NCBI GenBank assembly: GCA_026708055.1
Contig: JAPOVS010000035.1
Coordinates: 1-64,000 of the forward strand
Direction: 5' to 3'
Length of the DNA: 64,000 nt
Source: a bacterium
Lineage (GTDB): Bacteria; Actinomycetota; Acidimicrobiia; Acidimicrobiales; CATQHL01
In this document: piece by piece, positions 16,706 to 37,836 of the stretch
Layout of the letters: each line of letters starts with the position of its first letter
Numbering within the stretch: position 1 is the first letter of the stretch
The notes under the pieces: generated by a model
The model's database searches: none
The model's input: only the letters and a program-made list of their open reading frames with translations
What the model was told of the DNA's origin: nothing
Translations under genes and position numbers: made by a program

Positions 16706-16751
16706 TTTCGCGACGCCTGGCGGCGCCGGGTTGCCGGGAAGGAGAGATGTC

Positions 16752-17738
16752 TTGGCGGATGGCTCACGGGTGATCGACGGCTTCCTGGACGCGCCGCCCC
16801 GGCGCCGGGTCGTGATCAGCACGGATGTGGCGAACGAGGCCGACGACGCGTTCGCCGTGGCGTACGCGCTTCTCTCGCCAAGCCTCGATGTGCGATGCGT
16901 GGTGCCGACGCACTTCGGCCAGCGCGGGGTGGCGGACAGCCTGGGCGCCAGCAGGGACGAACTGGGGCGTCTGCTGGCGGCGATGGATCGCACGGACTCC
17001 GTGGTGGTGCGCGACGGTTCACCGAGGGCGATGTCCGACGCGCTGACGCCGGTGGACAGTCCCGGGGCGCGGGCCATCGTCGCCGAGGCGCTGCGGGACG
17101 ACCCGCTGCCCCTGTTCGTTCTCTGTCTCGGTTCCCTGACCGACATGGCCTCCGCTCTGCTGCTGGCGCCGGCAATCGCTGAGAGGGACGTGACCGTCGT
17201 CTGGATCGGGGGCCCGAGCAATCCTCCGGATCCTGTCCCGCTCTACTGGCCGGAATTCAACCTCTCCAACGACCTCGTCGCGGCCAACGTGGTGTTCGGT
17301 TCCGCTGCTCAGCTCTGGCAGATCCCGATGAACACGTACGCGTCGTGTGCCGTGTCGTACGCCGAGCTGCTGGGTCGGGTGGCGCCCCAGGGCGAACTGG
17401 GCCAGTACCTGATGCGCCAGCTCTACGACTGGGCCGAGGGGTTCGGCTGGGACTGGGAGCTGAAGCACCTGTCCGACTGCGCTGCCGTCGGAGCCGTCAT
17501 CCGGGACGACTTCGGGCGGTTCGACCTGATCCCGGCCCCGCAGTTCAGCGAGGCGTTCCACAATGCGGCGACCGACGGGAACCGGCCGATTCGGGTCTAC
17601 CAGGAGGTGGACCGCCGGTTTCTCTTCGAGGACCTGTTCGGGAAGATCAAGCTCTTCGCCTCTGCCGGCGGCTCGGACTCCTACCCGCCGCGGCATCCCG
17701 TGAAGGAGGGGGTCGCCTGGGGCTGGCAGCCGCACTGA
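16752..17738 (+). CDS. Nucleoside hydrolase-like protein
   Basis: The TTG at 16752 is chosen because AAGGAG lies 7 to 8 nt upstream; an ATG at 16747 is out of frame. The 328-residue product resembles inosine-uridine-preferring nucleoside hydrolases and related glycosidases. VVISTDVANEADDAFAVAYAL near the N-terminus stands in for the D-D-G-DDA-A calcium-binding motif, with NEADDA replacing DPG-DDA. LCLGSLTDMASAL matches the LGPLTN-A segment. It would cleave an N-glycosidic or related bond and release a sugar. An operator-like site upstream links it to the sugar cluster. DUF1593-type sugar-binding hydrolases are an alternative. Confidence 0.75.
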   Translation: MADGSRVIDGFLDAPPRRRVVISTDVANEADDAFAVAYALLSPSLDVRCVVPTHFGQRGVADSLGASRDELGRLLAAMDRTDSVVVRDGSPRAMSDALTPVDSPGARAIVAEALRDDPLPLFVLCLGSLTDMASALLLAPAIAERDVTVVWIGGPSNPPDPVPLYWPEFNLSNDLVAANVVFGSAAQLWQIPMNTYASCAVSYAELLGRVAPQGELGQYLMRQLYDWAEGFGWDWELKHLSDCAAVGAVIRDDFGRFDLIPAPQFSEAFHNAATDGNRPIRVYQEVDRRFLFEDLFGKIKLFASAGGSDSYPPRHPVKEGVAWGWQPH

Positions 17739-17931
17739 GCCTGCGGCCCGCCGACCGGCCGATCAGTCCCGGATGGCGAGGCGGGTGTCAGACCCCACCG
17801 GATCATTCCTCGCCTCTGCTGACCCGGCCGCGCCGGAGCGCCGGAAAGCCGGGCGGGAATACTCTCATCGGCGGGAACCAGGCGGCGGCGTCGTTCGTCT
17901 GATGTTTCGCGAGCGAGGGAGGAGATGAGGC

Positions 17932-20900
17932 GTGCGCCGACTGTTCGCCACCTGCCTGGTCCTTGCCGCACTTGCCTCCGCCTGCGCAGCCGACCGGCAG
18001 ACAGAGGAACGAGCGACATCCGTCCCGGGGACAGGGACGACCGCGCCCGTACAGGCTGTCGGCCCTCCCGTCGCCGCCGGCAACAAGGCCAAGGAGGGCG
18101 CCGCGACCGAGGGAACCGCCCCCCGGCCGCCCGGGGAGTCGACAGGCGGCGGCGACGGCCAGGAGGCCCCGGTCGCCGATCCCGCACAGCCGGAGGCGGC
18201 CCGGCCACTCGAGGAGTTGGAGGAGGCCAAGCAGGAGGAGGCCAAGCAGGAGGACGTCGAGCCGCCGGAGGTCGAGCAGGAGGCGCTGAAGCCGACGGAC
18301 CTGGAGCAGGAGTACCCCGAGTCGGCGGAGGCCGGTCGGGGGGCGCCCGAGGCCGAGGTCGAACAGGGGGCGCCCGAGCCGGCCGAGGTCGAACAGGAGG
18401 CGCCCGAGGCGGCGGCGGGCTTCGTTGCCGTCAGTTCGGGTCTGGCCCACTCGTGCGGGGTGCGGGCCGACGGCAGCATCGCCTGCTGGGGTTGGAACGA
18501 CTACCGGCAGGCGGAGCCGCCGGCGATAGAACCCAGCGACCGCGCCAGGGTGCCCGACGGGCGATTCAGCACCCTGTCGGCCGGCGACGCGCACTCCTGC
18601 GGGCTGCGCCCCGGCGGCGCCATCGAGTGCTGGGGATGGAACACCGATACCCGGTTCGTGGATGTGGCGGCCGGCGACTTCCACACGTGCGGCCTGCAAG
18701 CCGACGGTCTGGTCGAGTGCTGGGGGCGCAGCGCGCGCGGGCGGCTGGACGCGCCGCCTGGGCGGTTCGCCGCCGTCGCCGCGGGCGAGAGCGGCTCGTG
18801 CGGGTTGCGCGTCGACGGTTCCATCGAGTGCTGGGGCGACGTCTACGGCCCTTACGACATCCCCGACGGGCGGTTCGTCGACATCGACACCGCGTTCTGG
18901 CAGTCGTGCGCGTTGCGAGACGACGGGACCATCGACTGCTGGAGTGACACATGGTGGGACGTGGCCCCGCCGGAGGGGAGATTCACCGACCTGGCCGTGG
19001 CCTACGAGCATTCCTGCGCGGTGCGCTTCGACGGCGGGATCGAATGCTGGTTCAGCGAGAACCTCGACCGGGGCCCTGTGCCCGAGAAGGCCAGTCCGCC
19101 CGGCGGGGAGTTCACCGCCGTCGCCGCCGGCCTCGGCCACACCTGCGGACTGCGCACCGACGGCGCCATCGAGTGCTGGGGCGACGACGGGGAGGGTCAG
19201 GCCACCCCACCCGCCGGCCGGTTCATCGACGTGACGGCGGGCGGGTCCCACTCGTGCGGGTTGCGCGACGACGGGATCATCGAATGCTGGGGTCTCGAGT
19301 CGGTTGTCACGGCGCCCGACGGCGTGCACTTCGCGGGCGCAGACGGCGTCGTCGAGGAGATCGTGTCCCCGGAGAGACCGTTCGCCGGTCTGGCCGCCGG
19401 GCCGTGGCACACGTGCGGCGTGCGCCGCGATGGCGCCGTCGACTGCTGGGGCGACAGCTGGGGGAGGGACGCCCATCCGCCCGGCGGCCGGTTCACCGCC
19501 GTGACTCTCGGCGAGGGCCATTCCTGCGGCCTGCGCACCGACGGCACCGTCCAGTGCTGGGGCCTGAACCTGCAGCGACAGCTGGGTGCCCCAAGCGGGC
19601 GGTTCGCCGCGATCGGCGCGGGTGGGCGGCATTCGTGCGGCGTGCGCGTCGACGGCTGGATCGACTGCTGGGGCACCGACTGGCAGGGGCTCGCCACGCC
19701 GCCGGACGGCCTGTTCACGTCAGTCTCGGCCGGCGACGAGCACAACTGCGGCGTACACACCGACGGCACCGTCGAGTGCTGGGGTCACGACGAGTGGGGA
19801 CAGGCTGACCCCCCCGAGGGACGCTTCGAGGTCGTGGACGCCGGCTGGCGGCACTCCTGTGGGGTGCGCGTCGGCGGTGCCGTGGACTGCTGGGGTGACA
19901 ACGAGTGGGGGCAGGCTGAACCGCCCGAAGGACGGTTCTCGGCCGTGGCGAGCGGCTGGCTCCACTCGTGCGGGCTGCGCGTCGACGGCACGATCGACTG
20001 CTGGGGCAGCAACGGGTACGAGGTCCTCGACGCGCCCGAAGGACGCTTCGAGGACGTGACGGTGGGCCAGCGCTACTCCTGCGGCCTGCGCACCGACGGC
20101 GCTGCCGTCTGCTGGGGCCTCATGCTGGTGGTCCCGACCCCGGAGGGCGTCCGGTCGACGGGTTTCGGCGAGACTCCGCAGCCCGAACAGGTCGACGATT
20201 CCGTCGGCGACATGACTCCCCCTGCCGTTCCCTTCACCGCGGTCGCCGCCGGTCTCGCGCATTCGTGCGGGTTGCGTGACGATGGTGCTGTGGAGTGCTG
20301 GGGCGCCAACGCGTACGGGCAGGCCGAACCGCCCGAGGCGAAGTTCATCGCCGTAGCCGCCGGTGATGACTACACATGCGGGTTGCGTGACGATGGTGCT
20401 GTGGAGTGCTGGGGCGCCGACGCGTACGGGCAGATCGAACCGCCCGAGGGGCGGTTCACGGCCTTCTCCTCAGGGAGGCGCCATTCGTGCGGGTTGCGTG
20501 ACGATGGTGCTGTGGAGTGCTGGGGTGCCGACGTGTACGGGCAGGCCGAACCGCCTGAGGGGCGGTTCACGGCGGTTGCGGCCGGCTGGTTCCGGTCTTG
20601 TGGGTTGCGTGCCGGCGGCGCTGTGGAGTGCTGGGGCAGCGCCGACATCGCCTGGGCGGACCCTCCAGCCGGCGAGATGCTCGCTGTGACCGCGGGCCTT
20701 CATCATTCGTGCGGGTTGCGTGCCGGCGGCGACGTGGAGTGCTGGGGCGCAGACGGCAGCTCGGCCGATCGGCCGCGTGGAACGTTCAGCGCGCTCGCCG
20801 CGGGCAACTATCACTTGTGCGGGATACGGACCGACGGCACGGTCGATTGCTGGGTCGGCCCCGGTTTCGCGCCGGTCGCGACACCGCGCGGTCAATTCAC

Positions 20901-21849
20901 AGCCGTTGCCGCCGGTGCTGGGCACTCGTGCGGTCTGCGCGCCGACGGTTGGATCACCTGCCAGAACCTCGCATCGGCCGTGCCTGCGCCGGACGGTGTG
21001 TGGTACCCGCCTCCCGATGGCGCCGTTCCGGACGAGACCCGTCCTGCCGTTGCGTTCGCTGCTGTCGCCGCCGGCAGGTCGCATTCGTGCGGGTTGCGCA
21101 GCGACGGGACAGTCAGTTGCTGGGGCGGCAATCGTTCAGGCGTGGCTGATGCCCCGGAGGGACGGTTCACCTTCGTGGCGGCGGGAAACGGGCATACGTG
21201 CGGGTTGCGAGCCGACGGCACAGTTCTCTGCTGGGGAGCCAACGAGGCTGGGCAAGCCGACGCTCCGGACGGCCGGTTCACCGCTCTGGCAGCCGGTGCC
21301 CGACATTCGTGTGGGTTGCGAGTCGACGGCACAGCTGTCTGCTGGGGAGGCGTTCGCTTCGGGGAGGCCGACGCTCCGGACGGCCGGTTCACCGCTCTGG
21401 CAGCCGGATTCTGGCATTCGTGCGGGTTGCGTGATGACGGCACGGTCACCTGCTGGGGAAGCAACGAGTACGGGCAGGCCGAGGCGGTTGACGGCCAGTA
21501 CGTGTCCGTCGTCGCCGGGTACGCGTTCTCGTGCGCCTTGCGGAGTGACGGCACGGTCACCTGCTGGGGAAGCAACGACTCGGGTCAGGCCAGCCCACCC
21601 TCCGGCCCGTTCAACGCGATAGCCGCCGGCGATGCGCACGCGTGCGGCCTGCGTGCAGACGGCCGGGTGGCCTGCTGGGGCAACAACTCGAGTGGGCAAC
21701 TGGACGCTCCGTCAGCCCGGTTCACTGCGGTGGCTGCCGGCGGCGCGCACTCGTGCGGCGTGCGGACGACCGGCGACGTGCTGTGCTGGAGCCGTCCGAC
21801 GTTCCTCCCGGCACCCGAGGGTGTTATCAACGTGGACGCGGCGGATTAG
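17932..21849 (+). CDS. Large RCC1-repeat lipoprotein
   Basis: The 1305-residue product starts with a lipoprotein signal peptide (lipobox LASAC, Cys18). A linker of roughly 140 residues follows that becomes rich in Glu, Pro and Gln. Then come 29 RCC1-like units of about 37 residues, each close to F-AVAAG--HSCGLR-DG-V-CWG-N--GQ--PP-GR. Units 8, 15, 22 and 29 carry an aberrant tail with APDGV/TPEGV. The units therefore fall into blocks of eight, seven, seven and seven, as expected for four tandem seven-bladed beta-propellers. Two Cys per unit suggest disulfides outside the cell. It is probably a surface adhesion or binding protein. A GAGGAG precedes the GTG start. No partner gene is evident. Confidence 0.9.
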   Translation: MRRLFATCLVLAALASACAADRQTEERATSVPGTGTTAPVQAVGPPVAAGNKAKEGAATEGTAPRPPGESTGGGDGQEAPVADPAQPEAARPLEELEEAKQEEAKQEDVEPPEVEQEALKPTDLEQEYPESAEAGRGAPEAEVEQGAPEPAEVEQEAPEAAAGFVAVSSGLAHSCGVRADGSIACWGWNDYRQAEPPAIEPSDRARVPDGRFSTLSAGDAHSCGLRPGGAIECWGWNTDTRFVDVAAGDFHTCGLQADGLVECWGRSARGRLDAPPGRFAAVAAGESGSCGLRVDGSIECWGDVYGPYDIPDGRFVDIDTAFWQSCALRDDGTIDCWSDTWWDVAPPEGRFTDLAVAYEHSCAVRFDGGIECWFSENLDRGPVPEKASPPGGEFTAVAAGLGHTCGLRTDGAIECWGDDGEGQATPPAGRFIDVTAGGSHSCGLRDDGIIECWGLESVVTAPDGVHFAGADGVVEEIVSPERPFAGLAAGPWHTCGVRRDGAVDCWGDSWGRDAHPPGGRFTAVTLGEGHSCGLRTDGTVQCWGLNLQRQLGAPSGRFAAIGAGGRHSCGVRVDGWIDCWGTDWQGLATPPDGLFTSVSAGDEHNCGVHTDGTVECWGHDEWGQADPPEGRFEVVDAGWRHSCGVRVGGAVDCWGDNEWGQAEPPEGRFSAVASGWLHSCGLRVDGTIDCWGSNGYEVLDAPEGRFEDVTVGQRYSCGLRTDGAAVCWGLMLVVPTPEGVRSTGFGETPQPEQVDDSVGDMTPPAVPFTAVAAGLAHSCGLRDDGAVECWGANAYGQAEPPEAKFIAVAAGDDYTCGLRDDGAVECWGADAYGQIEPPEGRFTAFSSGRRHSCGLRDDGAVECWGADVYGQAEPPEGRFTAVAAGWFRSCGLRAGGAVECWGSADIAWADPPAGEMLAVTAGLHHSCGLRAGGDVECWGADGSSADRPRGTFSALAAGNYHLCGIRTDGTVDCWVGPGFAPVATPRGQFTAVAAGAGHSCGLRADGWITCQNLASAVPAPDGVWYPPPDGAVPDETRPAVAFAAVAAGRSHSCGLRSDGTVSCWGGNRSGVADAPEGRFTFVAAGNGHTCGLRADGTVLCWGANEAGQADAPDGRFTALAAGARHSCGLRVDGTAVCWGGVRFGEADAPDGRFTALAAGFWHSCGLRDDGTVTCWGSNEYGQAEAVDGQYVSVVAGYAFSCALRSDGTVTCWGSNDSGQASPPSGPFNAIAAGDAHACGLRADGRVACWGNNSSGQLDAPSARFTAVAAGGAHSCGVRTTGDVLCWSRPTFLPAPEGVINVDAAD
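18421..21849 (+). repeat. 29 tandem RCC1-type coding repeats in four blocks
   Basis: The repeat period is about 111 bp. Block boundaries are at 18421, 19381, 20233 and 21055, and each block closes with a divergent unit. Units 16 to 18 (from 20233) are almost identical at DNA level over about 50 bp each, which points to recent duplication or gene conversion inside the third block. Confidence 0.88.
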
Positions 21850-21936: not shown

Positions 21937-22338
21937 TCAGCGCTCCACGTGCAGGGAGGATCCCAGGTCGCCGAGGACCAGGTCGCGGTCGAAGTCGGGC
22001 ACGTGGTCGCGGGGGACCGGCGCCAGGGCCTCGATGAACGTGCAGCCCGTCTCGGAGTACAGCTCGTGGGGTACGCGGCGGTTCATGACGGCCACGTCGC
22101 CGGCGACGAGGTGGCGCTGCTCGTTGCCGATGGTGAGGGTCATCTCACCCTCGGTCAGCACCACGATCTGCTCGGTGGCCTCGTGGTGGTGGCGGGCCAC
22201 CGTCGTGCCGGGCTCGTAGGTCACCCGGCAGAGCAGCACCTGCTCGCCACCGATTGCGTGCAGGTGCACGCCGGGAAAGAACTCGAGCGGCTCCACCCCG
22301 TTCCAGGTGCGGAACGGCGAGGTGTCTTCGGTGCTCAT
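21937..22338 (-). CDS. Cupin-domain protein
   Basis: The 133-residue protein is a single cupin beta-barrel. The first motif is visible as RHHHEATEQIVVLTEGEMTLTIG, with His and Glu metal ligands. The second runs through AGDVAVMNRRVPHELYSE. It lies 37 nt downstream of the molybdopterin subunit gene on the same strand and is probably the last gene of that operon. Small cupins beside catabolic oxidoreductases act as isomerases, dioxygenases or sugar/phenol-binding proteins. Nothing in the sequence decides between these. Confidence 0.82.
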   Translation of the reverse strand: MSTEDTSPFRTWNGVEPLEFFPGVHLHAIGGEQVLLCRVTYEPGTTVARHHHEATEQIVVLTEGEMTLTIGNEQRHLVAGDVAVMNRRVPHELYSETGCTFIEALAPVPRDHVPDFDRDLVLGDLGSSLHVER

Positions 22339-33223: not shown

Positions 33224-33944
<721 letters not shown>

Positions 33945-33995
33945 CCGACACCGGAGCCTGACTCCGCTGTCATCCCGGCGCCGCCCCCTCTTTTC

Positions 33996-34022
33996 GTCAT
34001 TCCGGCGAAGGCCGGAATCCAG
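33996..34022. repeat. REP-like palindrome, copy A
   Basis: GTCATTCCGGCGAAGGCCGGAATCCAG contains an 8-bp perfect stem (ATTCCGGC / GCCGGAAT) with a 4-nt loop. It lies between convergent genes ending at 33944 and 34036. A related copy lies at 39099-39123. Such elements act as transcription or mRNA-stability hairpins and occur widely in bacteria. Confidence 0.65.
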
Positions 34023-34035
34023 CACCCCCGGCGGG

Positions 34036-37000
34036 CTAGGCGCTGGTCCCTGCCGGAACCGCTTCGCAGAAGCTCTTCACCCGCCCGCTCAACTCCTCCC
34101 GGTAGGTCGCCACGCGGCTCATCTTGAGGTCCTCGTAGCCGCGGATCTGATCGACCAGATCGGCGATCTCGACCGCTTCGTCCCGGTTGATGGCGTCAAG
34201 CGTGCCCAGCAGCCCCCGGATCGCCGCGCGGTACTCGTCGGGCAGCCGGCGCTCGCAGCGACGCACCCGGGCGTAGCCGAAGAGGTCCAAAGGTGTGCCG
34301 CGCAACCGCTTGGCAGCCCGGAGCCCGACCAGCAAGGGGCGGGCCCAGCGTCCCAGTCTCAGTTTGCGGGACACGCCGAGTGCACGGAGGAACGGGGGGT
34401 GCAGGTGCCAGACGAGTCGGGCGCCGGGGCCCGCGATCGACTCGGCCTGTGTCGCCGCGGCCGGCTCGAGCAACAGCCGGGCCACCTCGTACTCGTCCTT
34501 GTAGGCCATCAGCTTGTGCAGGCTGCGCGCCACCGTCTCTGTGAGGTCCCAGCCGACGAGGTCCTCCTCGGCGTCGGCCACCTCGGCCACGAAGCGCAGG
34601 AATTCCTCGGCATAGCCCGGCGACTGGTAGGTAGTCAGGTCGGCGGAAAGCATCTCCAGCAGATCGCCGAGGCCGGTGCGTGCGGCAAGTGGATCCAGGA
34701 GCCGGCGGACCGGCGGTGCGAGGGCGTCCCCGCTGTCGATCTGGGATCCCTCGGCGTCGTCGTCGGGGGGCGGGCTGACCCCGATCAAGGCGGCGTTCGC
34801 GGCGGCCAACTCCACGCCGGCGGGATCGATCACCCATTGCCGGCCCCAGCGGAAGGCCTCACGGTTGCGCTCGGCGGCCACGCCGTTCAGGTCGACGGCG
34901 GACTCGAACGAAGCGGCGGTTATCGGCAGCGCCCCGCACTGGTAGGCCACGCCGATCAGGAACACGTTGGCCGACGTGGTGTTGCCGAAGAGGCGCCGCG
35001 TGATGGCGCCCGCGTCCACCCAGCGGTTCTCACCTGCCCGCGAGGTGGCGTCGACGACCGACCGCAACTCTTCGGTTCTGGGATAGCCCTGCTCGGGGTG
35101 CACAACCATCTGGCCCGTGCTGGTGGGTGTGACCGAGGCCACCACCAGGGTGCGCTCGGCAGAGGCGCCCGACAGTCCCCCCGGGGCGGCGGCGGTGAGC
35201 AGGTCGAAGGCCAGGTAGAGGTCCACCATCCCCTCCGTGGCCTTGTTGGAGGCGATCGGCTCCTCCGCGCTGATGCGCACGTCGCTCAGTACGGGGCCCG
35301 CTTTCTGCGACAGCCCGGTCTGGTCGAGTCCCTGCACGTGCCGCCCGCTCAGCAGGGCAGCGGTTCCCAGCAGGTGCGAGGCGGTCACGACGCCGGTGCC
35401 GCCGATTCCTGCCATCCGCACGGTCATGTTCCCGGGTCCCGCGGCTGCCGGCTCGGCGATCTCGTCCGGTGGCTGGGGCCGGACTCGCTCAGCCAGCGCC
35501 GGCGTGGCCGCGGCCCTCTTGCGTGCGATGCGGCGTTGGCGGCCGGCGCGAGCGGAGCGCACCGTGGCGAAGGAGGGGCAGTCACCGTCGATGCAGGAGT
35601 AGTCGAAGTTGCACGTCGTCTGGTCGATCTTGGTCTTCCGGCCGTAAGGCGTGTCGACCGGCTGCACCGACAGGCAGTTGCTCACGTCGCCGCAGTCGCC
35701 GCAGCCCTCGCAGACCCGCTCGTTGATGAGCACCCGGGTCTTGGGCGTGGGTCGCTGGCCGCGGCGGCGGGCCCGGCGCAGCTCGGCGGCACAGAACTGG
35801 TCGTGGATCAGGACGGTCACGCCTTCGACGTCGCGCAGCTTCTCCTGCGCTTCGATCAGGCGCTTGCGGTCCCAGACCTCGACGCCGGTCGGCAACGTGA
35901 CGCGCTTGTAGCGGCCGAGATCCTCGGTGGTGATCAGGACCTGACGCACACCCTGGGCAAGCAGGATCCTGGCCATCTCCGGGACGCCCACGATGCCGGT
36001 TGGATCCTGCCCGCCGGTCATGGCCACGGCGCCGTTGTACAGCAGCTTGAACGTGATGTTCACCCCGGCCGCCACGGCGAATTGGATGCCCAACTGGCCG
36101 GAGTGGGCGTAGGTGCCGTCGCCGAGGTTCTGGATGGAATGGGCCCGCTCGGTGAACGGCGACATGCCCACCCAGGTGGCGCCCTCGGCGCCCATCGAGC
36201 ACACCGAACTCCACTGGCCCACCCGCTCGGGTTCCATGAGCGAGACCATGCCGTGGCAGCCGATTCCGACGCCCACCAGCGAGCCGTCGGGGACCCGGGT
36301 GCTGGAGTTGTGCGGGCAGCCCGAGCAGAAGTAGGGAGTGCGGCGGGCACCGACGGGCAGCGACTGTCCGCGGCGCGGCGCCGCCGGCGGCGGGCCGAGG
36401 CGGTCATCGCTGAGGTGCGCGGAGAGCCGTGCATGCAGCGGGCCGGTGAGCGCGTCGGCGTCGAGGCCGGCGTGGCGGGCCAGCAGCGGCTCGCCCCGGT
36501 CGTCCCGCTTGCCCACCACGGCGGGCCGGTCGGCCAGCGGGTACAGGGCGTCCTTCACGAACAGCTCCAGGTGCGGGTCCTTCTCCTCCAGCACGATCAC
36601 CTCGGAGAGCCCGGCGGCGAAGCTCCGCACGAAGGCGCCCTCCAGCGGGTAGGGGAGCGAGAACTTCGCCAGGCGGATGCCGGCGCCGGCGATGTCACCG
36701 ATGCTGGGAAGGCCCAGCAGGCGCAGCGCCTCCAGCATCTCGTGGTAGCAGTTCCCGGAGGCGACGATCCCCACCCGCGCGGGGCCATCGGGGGTGGTGA
36801 GGCGGTTCAGCCCGTTGCGGGACCCGTAGCTGCGGGCCAGCTCCAGACGAACCTCGACGAGGTCCCGCTCGATGTCGTTGGTGTACGGGGGCATGAGGTT
36901 GCCGTCGGGCCGGTGGCGGTACGGCTCGGGTGGGCCGTCGTGACCGGGCAGCACGGGCAGGCGGTAGGGCGCGGCGGTGCCGCCGCCGCGGCCGTTGGCT

Positions 37001-37599
37001 GCTCCCCAGCCGTCGCCCCCCAGATCCACCGAGCCGGTGCCGTCGGCGACGCCGGCCACGATCCGCAACGCCGTCACCACCCCGCACGACCGGGACAGGG
37101 CGATGGCGTGGCGCCCCAAGTCGAGCGCCTCCTGCGGGTCGCCGGGCACCAGGAAGGGCATGCGCAGCGCCGCCAGGGTGCCCTCGGAGGAACTGCCGAC
37201 GGTGGAGGACTTGGCGTAGGGGTCGTCGCCGACCAGCATCACCGCCCCGCCGAGCGGCGACGTCCCGGTCAGCACGGCGTGGCGCATGGCGTCACAGGCC
37301 CGGTCCAACCCCGGGGCCTTGCCGTACCACACGCCCAGGACCCCGTCCTTGGTGGCATCGCTGAACCCTGCCACGAGTTGGCTGCCCATGACCGCGGCCG
37401 CGGCCAGTTCCTCGTTGAGACCGGGCTGGTGGACGAGCTGCAGCCCGGCGGCCTCGGCCAGCCCGGCCACCCGGGTGGCCTCCATGTCGAGGGTGGCCAG
37501 GGGCGACCCCGGGTAGCCGCAGACGAAGGCGGCGGTGTCGTGGCCGGCTGCGCGGTCGCGGCGCAACTGCTCGAACGGCAGCCTGGCCAGGATCTGCAC
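34036..37599 (-). CDS. Fused indolepyruvate ferredoxin oxidoreductase
   Basis: This 1187-residue protein (from the first usable start, a GTG at 37599) fuses the parts of a 2-oxoacid:ferredoxin oxidoreductase. The N-terminal domain has CGYPGSPLATLDME. The TPP domain has GIGCHGM, GAEGATWVG and NLGDGTYAHSG. A ferredoxin-like Cys region follows (CEGCGDC, then C, then CNFDYSC and C). The gamma domain has MAGIGGTGVVTASHLLG, then a conserved C-terminal domain. It converts arylpyruvates or other 2-oxoacids to acyl-CoA with ferredoxin. Conserved-looking codons (YRLDDRYL..EGRVFASG, from 37653) lie in frame upstream of the GTG, but no ATG, GTG or TTG precedes them before a TAG at 37722. Confidence 0.88.
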   Translation of the reverse strand: MQILARLPFEQLRRDRAAGHDTAAFVCGYPGSPLATLDMEATRVAGLAEAAGLQLVHQPGLNEELAAAAVMGSQLVAGFSDATKDGVLGVWYGKAPGLDRACDAMRHAVLTGTSPLGGAVMLVGDDPYAKSSTVGSSSEGTLAALRMPFLVPGDPQEALDLGRHAIALSRSCGVVTALRIVAGVADGTGSVDLGGDGWGAANGRGGGTAAPYRLPVLPGHDGPPEPYRHRPDGNLMPPYTNDIERDLVEVRLELARSYGSRNGLNRLTTPDGPARVGIVASGNCYHEMLEALRLLGLPSIGDIAGAGIRLAKFSLPYPLEGAFVRSFAAGLSEVIVLEEKDPHLELFVKDALYPLADRPAVVGKRDDRGEPLLARHAGLDADALTGPLHARLSAHLSDDRLGPPPAAPRRGQSLPVGARRTPYFCSGCPHNSSTRVPDGSLVGVGIGCHGMVSLMEPERVGQWSSVCSMGAEGATWVGMSPFTERAHSIQNLGDGTYAHSGQLGIQFAVAAGVNITFKLLYNGAVAMTGGQDPTGIVGVPEMARILLAQGVRQVLITTEDLGRYKRVTLPTGVEVWDRKRLIEAQEKLRDVEGVTVLIHDQFCAAELRRARRRGQRPTPKTRVLINERVCEGCGDCGDVSNCLSVQPVDTPYGRKTKIDQTTCNFDYSCIDGDCPSFATVRSARAGRQRRIARKRAAATPALAERVRPQPPDEIAEPAAAGPGNMTVRMAGIGGTGVVTASHLLGTAALLSGRHVQGLDQTGLSQKAGPVLSDVRISAEEPIASNKATEGMVDLYLAFDLLTAAAPGGLSGASAERTLVVASVTPTSTGQMVVHPEQGYPRTEELRSVVDATSRAGENRWVDAGAITRRLFGNTTSANVFLIGVAYQCGALPITAASFESAVDLNGVAAERNREAFRWGRQWVIDPAGVELAAANAALIGVSPPPDDDAEGSQIDSGDALAPPVRRLLDPLAARTGLGDLLEMLSADLTTYQSPGYAEEFLRFVAEVADAEEDLVGWDLTETVARSLHKLMAYKDEYEVARLLLEPAAATQAESIAGPGARLVWHLHPPFLRALGVSRKLRLGRWARPLLVGLRAAKRLRGTPLDLFGYARVRRCERRLPDEYRAAIRGLLGTLDAINRDEAVEIADLVDQIRGYEDLKMSRVATYREELSGRVKSFCEAVPAGTSA

Positions 37600-37830
37600 G
37601 CCCGAGGCGAAGACCCTGCCCTCGTCGCGCAGGTACCGGTCGTCGAGGCGGTACGCCGGGGTCCCTACGCTCGGGTCACCAGATGTCGCCGGGTTCGTCG
37701 TGGGGTCTATACGTGCAGGCTACCGCGGGGGTCCCCGACTGTCCCGCGCGGAGTGCTGCGGGGCGCCACGAGCCGCTGCGCAGGCAGATGCAGGTACGCG
37801 TCGGCTGCTCGCGGCCTCGCCCGCTCCGCC

Positions 37831-37836
37831 TAACAT
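37831..37836 (+). promoter_or_regulatory. -10-like TAACAT, leaderless start of acyl-CoA dehydrogenase
   Basis: TAACAT ends 7 nt before the GTG at 37844 and there is no Shine-Dalgarno sequence. This is consistent with transcription starting at the start codon. The same arrangement recurs at six other genes in the window. Confidence 0.5.

Follow-up and report, generated by a model that had tools for sequence, protein, structure and literature searches.

BLIP-II (PDB 1jtd, 3qhy and 3qi0) is a secreted actinobacterial seven-bladed propeller with units of about 37–40 residues. The ectodomain of CRINKLY4/ACR4 (PDB 7a0j and 7a0k), a plant receptor kinase with other domains, is an extracellular seven-bladed propeller with Cys-bearing units of the CGL...CWG type, and the RCC1/UVR8/HERC2 RLD propellers have seven blades of the RCC1 repeat fold. 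RCC1-repeat effectors exist in Legionella (PMC7157520). WRAP (Npun_R6612) of Nostoc has 14 near-identical blades forming two seven-bladed propellers, and is an earlier bacterial example of recently amplified propellers in tandem (PMC6805158).

The window analysed here is a stretch of 64,000 nucleotides (positions 1–64,000 of contig JAPOVS010000035.1, assembly GCA_026708055.1) from a bacterium of the order Acidimicrobiales. It contains a gene for a putative RCC1-type lipoprotein, which is a real, well-formed propeller-string variant of an already known kind of propeller. The protein was matched by a BLIP-II profile (E 1.5e-26), and it agrees with BLIP-II in fold and unit length, but BLIP-II is a single propeller without Cys pairs and is not a lipoprotein. 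The best PDB sequence match was CRINKLY4/ACR4, which has one propeller only. The RCC1/UVR8/HERC2 propellers differ in being eukaryotic and intracellular, with longer units that lack Cys pairs. WRAP is a WD40 and not an RCC1 protein and has two propellers, and no lipid anchoring was found described for it (PMC6805158).

Gene, N-terminus and repeat units

The gene is a single ORF of 1305 aa at 17932–21849 (+), running from a GTG at 17932 to a stop at 21849, and a Shine–Dalgarno-like AGGGAGGAG (17916–17924, +) was read directly 7 nt upstream of the GTG. An antisense ORF of 609 aa (17803–19632, −) overlaps the gene and was read as a shadow, since third-position GC was highest in the sense frame (0.84 versus 0.73 in the antisense frame). 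The N-terminus (17932–17985, +) reads as a signal peptide with a lipobox-like LASA|C segment. This segment (MRRLFATCLVLAALASAC) reads as a permissive lipobox, short of ideal in having Ala at −3, with Cys18 as the putative lipidation site; clearer lipoboxes (LAGC, LVAGAC, LLASAC) are present in many RCC1 paralogues, and Cys18 is predicted to be lipidated. It is followed by an acidic Pro/Glu-rich stalk of about 137 residues (17986–18396, +), encoded partly by 15-nt repeats (VEQEA-like).

A script that took the Cys pair as its anchor delimited 29 RCC1 units with a C-x9-C pair. The match to Pfam RCC1_2 (PF13540) was far beyond chance, with E 2.8e-177 and 571 bits against a gathering score of 22, over 25 stretches; NCBIfam gave no match for the protein. 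A closing motif of the APDGV/TPEGV type was found in units 8, 15, 22 and 29 only, as TAPDGV, TPEGV, PAPDGV and PAPEGV, respectively, and in each case at equal distance from the unit start. These units measure 53, 62, 53 and 50 aa, the last being the end of the series, and most other units 36–37 aa. On the forward strand, block 1 (units 1–8) extends over 18397–19356 with its closing APDGV at 19312–19326, and block 2 (units 9–15) over 19357–20208 with TPEGV at 20137–20151, followed by a predicted disordered linker to 20208. Block 3 (units 16–22) lies at 20209–21030 and is closed by APDGV at 20986–21000, and block 4 (units 23–29, seven units) at 21031–21846, with APEGV at 21811–21825 near the C-terminus. 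The units, blocks and longer closing units reported in the preliminary description were thereby confirmed from the sequence, and the lipid anchor proposed there is upheld as a prediction from the lipobox-like LASAC and the clearer lipoboxes of the paralogues.

Block 1 has eight units, and its irregular lengths fall in unit 1 (48 aa), unit 2 (30 aa) and unit 6 (43 aa). The surplus unit had been placed at the start of the protein. Unit 1 lacks the P-x-G-R-F entry, as do the other block-first units 9, 16 and 23, and the irregular units of the block are 2 and 5/6; at the junction of units 2 and 3 (18631–18660, +) the blade link is some seven residues shorter than usual. Because unit 1 has block-first features and unit 2 lacks these link residues, the earlier placement was not accepted, and the surplus unit is probably not unit 1. 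An artefact of assembling a repeat-rich MAG appears quite unlikely as the source of the eighth unit, or indeed of the exact unit total: in this genome many of the RCC1 genes are cut by contig ends and repeats are hard to assemble, but the frame is open over 3.9 kb, the unit lengths are irregular but in phase, and a relative (L067) likewise has an eight-unit block.

Predicted propellers and cysteine pairs

AlphaFold (AF2) models were made of block 1 and of units 9–22. The latter model (mean pLDDT 86) contains two compact seven-bladed propellers, which part exactly at the closing insert of unit 15, with strands in threes and seven such sets per block; the sole long stretch below 50 pLDDT (model residues 257–283) is this insert. 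Block 2 corresponds to model residues 1–247 and block 3 to residues 281–529. Structural comparison with VIA-align placed units 16–22 on BLIP-II with Z 31.8 and an rmsd of 1.8 Å (239 of 271 residues aligned), and units 9–15 on RPGR, HERC2 and RCC1 with Z 24–28. Seven blades per closed ring, as had been expected from the seven units per block, are seen in the models of blocks 2 and 3. Some UVR8 alignments of this model span residues 6–548 with about 267 residues aligned, which tentatively hints that in this model the closing tail of the last block may dock on the first propeller.

The model of block 1 (pLDDT 80, pTM 0.80) aligned to UVR8 with Z 28.6 and an rmsd of 2.4 over 261 residues. Unit 5 was left out of this model at low confidence, and because the alignment gap falls at the same place, the model gives no independent choice of the surplus unit. 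The propeller reading of the RCC1 blocks is well supported. Of the four seven-bladed propellers first suggested, blocks 2 and 3 are borne out by the models and block 4, with seven units, is expected to fold likewise; block 1 departs from the scheme by its eight units.

Each of the 29 units contains both Cys, and these 58 residues together with Cys8 and the lipobox Cys18 account for the 60 Cys of the protein. When 847 units drawn from the genus, family and order were aligned, both Cys were found in 846, neither in one and a lone Cys in none; the HMM used favours Cys units, yet a unit scoring 30–50 bits would forfeit just a few of them by losing one Cys. A pair that is never half-lost is to be expected if a disulfide joins strands B and C, and such a bond is likely to be present in each blade, in agreement with the regular disulfides of the preliminary description.

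Unit numbers and origin of the repeats

Units were counted in relatives with an HMM built from the window protein, using only frames not cut by contig ends. Within the order, totals were multiples of seven in 36/53 closed frames, where 1/7 would be expected (p ~1e-18), and in other taxa in 34/47 frames, one of them with 42 units (p ~4e-19); the frames are related to one another, and both p values overstate their independence. The counts within the order were 7 (8 frames), 14 (23 frames), 21 (five frames) and few others. For counts above 7 alone, multiples of seven made up 28/42 frames within the order and 12/20 in other taxa. Unit numbers in relatives are therefore not random, as the four-propeller proposal had supposed, and cluster on 7, 14, 21 and 42. 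The 17 of 53 frames that depart from multiples of seven include clear HMM double hits (L069, L076) as well as real exceptions such as L067, which has eight units in its first half. Counts in whole multiples of seven offer a clean natural test of fold closure filtering repeat amplification.

In relatives with 14 units the P-x-G-V closing segment occurs at the last unit only, barring ordinary units that match the motif by chance, whereas in the window protein each propeller is closed separately. The same internal closing insert (PTPDGV) and a lipobox were found in a protein of the same genus (L073, G001:C47:40000-44023), which lies at a different locus and has its first part split over two frames by a frame change. 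A protein of a sister genus (L075) also has a lipobox, an acidic/Pro-Thr linker and 28 units, at a locus different from that of the window gene. Two further relatives were observed. A 3425-aa frame from an Actinomycetota MAG (L123, SXJP01000029) has 42 units arranged as six sevens with long inserts between them, of which several look Calx-beta-like, and amounts to six propellers in one protein. A lipoprotein of the window genome (L053, G000:C83) has just six units, including a nearly identical pair, and an LPEGI closing segment; it may be either a six-unit propeller or an assembly collapse.

The gene is flanked by a nucleoside-hydrolase-like gene (16731–17738, +; PF01156, 1.7e-17), which has a 93% identical orthologue in genome G004, and by a cupin gene (21937–22338, −; PF07883), which is kept in six relatives without an RCC1 neighbour. 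A search through these flanking genes found no syntenic RCC1 orthologue in the slot of the relatives compared. In G004 the flanking genes are 90–96% identical and the slot between them holds other genes and no RCC1 gene; in G002 and G005 a FAD oxidoreductase-like gene without an RCC1 match lies beside the cupin gene. As the slot is empty of RCC1 genes in relatives, the window gene reads as an accessory insertion.

Units within a block were more alike than units of different blocks (DNA 0.678 versus 0.650, reached in 0/5000 permutations). Units seven apart were no more alike than those at other spacings, and duplication of whole propellers as the sole source of the blocks was rejected on this account. 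Likeness within blocks without a special likeness at spacing seven suggests that amplification or homogenisation acted mostly blade by blade, locally. This would fit the view, put forward in the WRAP study, that propellers keep arising from single blades, with blade-wise amplification in other propellers (PMC6805158).

Variable face and proposed function

Entropy among units was highest at positions 8, 9, 25, 27 and 28. Positions 8–9 belong to the A–B loop and 25, 27 and 28 to the C–D loop, and both loops lie on one face of the disk. When BLIP-II was mapped onto the units by profile alignment, its hot-spot residues F74, W152, Y191, F230, W269, W53, D131, D167, D206 and F209 fell at the same unit positions. 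Between orthologous pairs of family members, dN/dS was 0.63 at the variable loop positions and 0.35 at most others. The units are under purifying selection, and the variable face is freer to change than the rest of the unit; positions 35 and 37, outside both loops, change as fast between orthologues. Positive selection was not found at the loop positions of the putative binding face in these pairs, where dN/dS was below 1.

In this monoderm member of the Acidimicrobiia, the protein would be secreted and would sit by its lipid anchor in the outer leaflet of the cytoplasmic membrane, and the acidic Pro/Glu-rich stalk would lift four tandem seven-bladed RCC1-type propellers off the membrane, with surface exposure as the expected outcome. 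Each blade would be a 37-residue, three-strand unit in which one disulfide pins the second strand to the third, and each propeller would end in its own P-x-G-V closing segment. The variable A–B and C–D loop residues would lie on the face by which BLIP-II grips its protein target. Because the variable residues occupy a face of the BLIP-II binding type, we favour, with moderate confidence, an anchored four-propeller lipoprotein that most likely serves as a multivalent binding scaffold, be it an adhesin, a receptor or an inhibitor.

Other functions were weighed against the binding scaffold. The propellers might act like BLIP-II and, instead of mediating adhesion, clamp extracellular cell-wall enzymes or beta-lactamases, whether the producer's or those of competitors. 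BLIP-II, a secreted actinobacterial propeller, is the closest structural match by Z and its contact positions coincide with the variable loop positions; on the other side, it is a single soluble propeller without Cys pairs, an identity of 31% between members of a repeat family is a poor guide to the target, and the diversity of the loop residues argues for many targets across paralogues, so that this specific role is unlikely. We give similarly little weight to a ligand-free role in which the propeller string would be a spacer or a structural element associated with the wall, acting as rigid rod or as decoration, and its variability would be neutral drift of exposed loops. The dN/dS of 0.63 at the variable positions fits relaxed constraint and exposed loops drift in any propeller, but loops diversified over about 20 paralogous loci per genome, on a core under purifying selection, suggest more than filler.

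Far less probable is a host-directed eukaryotic mimic, a Ran/RCC1-type effector like Legionella LegG1/PieG delivered into sponge or amoeba cells, even though RCC1 effectors are found in Legionella (PMC7157520) and one member of the genus is sponge-dwelling. The lipoprotein-type N-terminus, the two Cys per blade and the lipobox relatives speak for a protein anchored outside the cytoplasm, the repeat resembles BLIP-II and the CR4 ectodomains more than RCC1, and the family is widespread in the order. Given the extracytoplasmic features, a role in Ran guanine exchange of the RCC1 type appears unlikely.

The window gene is one of about 20 RCC1_2 loci in its own genome (G000), where unit and gene counts are lower bounds because RCC1 genes on contigs C44, C76, C74, C28 and C38 lie at or near contig ends. 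RCC1_2 loci were present in 8/8 genomes of the genus and PF13540 in 111/298 genomes of the order, and a single-protein scan of genome contigs found relatives in Myxococcota, Gemmatimonadota, Chloroflexi and archaea; the viral contigs scanned contained none. The habitat of the genus is known from one member, the sponge MAG G001 (JAGWAL 277c_6, identified by a sequence, L074, contained exactly in L122); specimen 277c was a Petrosia ficiformis sponge (PMC8941161). The preliminary description had taken the repeats as eukaryote-like and frequent in symbionts. The link to a symbiont genus stands, but 'eukaryote-like' is a misleading label for repeats that many bacteria and archaea carry. A restriction to host-associated bacteria or a eukaryotic derivation was rejected on the same distribution. 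Repeats so common in the order and beyond are not specific to eukaryotes and do not mark symbiosis.

More speculatively, and with considerable doubt, the roughly 20 surface propeller-string proteins per genome may together serve sponge-associated Acidimicrobiia as a modular system of recognition, with each propeller of a string binding its own target. Diversified BLIP-II-like binding faces would then be kept by blade-level amplification together with selection for closed sevens. If the binding faces are real, they would give uncultured sponge-associated bacteria, about whose surface biology very little is known, a repertoire for recognition. The family also provides ready-made propeller scaffolds, predicted to be disulfide-pinned, with one variable face.

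In six relatives (L059, L058, L065, L066, L069 and L072), at least two copies of a segment of about 60–70 aa were observed upstream of the RCC1 units. Its consensus, VRIxARRLxDGRxEFxLQQR...LLPxxRFFPxxARVGRWLxSSPL, recurs in many RCC1 paralogues of the genus and has no Pfam match; the segment is possibly an undescribed surface domain. Elsewhere in the window, a long ORF without a Pfam match (33913–37833, +) looks like a shadow and lies opposite an indolepyruvate ferredoxin oxidoreductase-like gene with DUF6537, POR and TPP domains (34036–37599, −).
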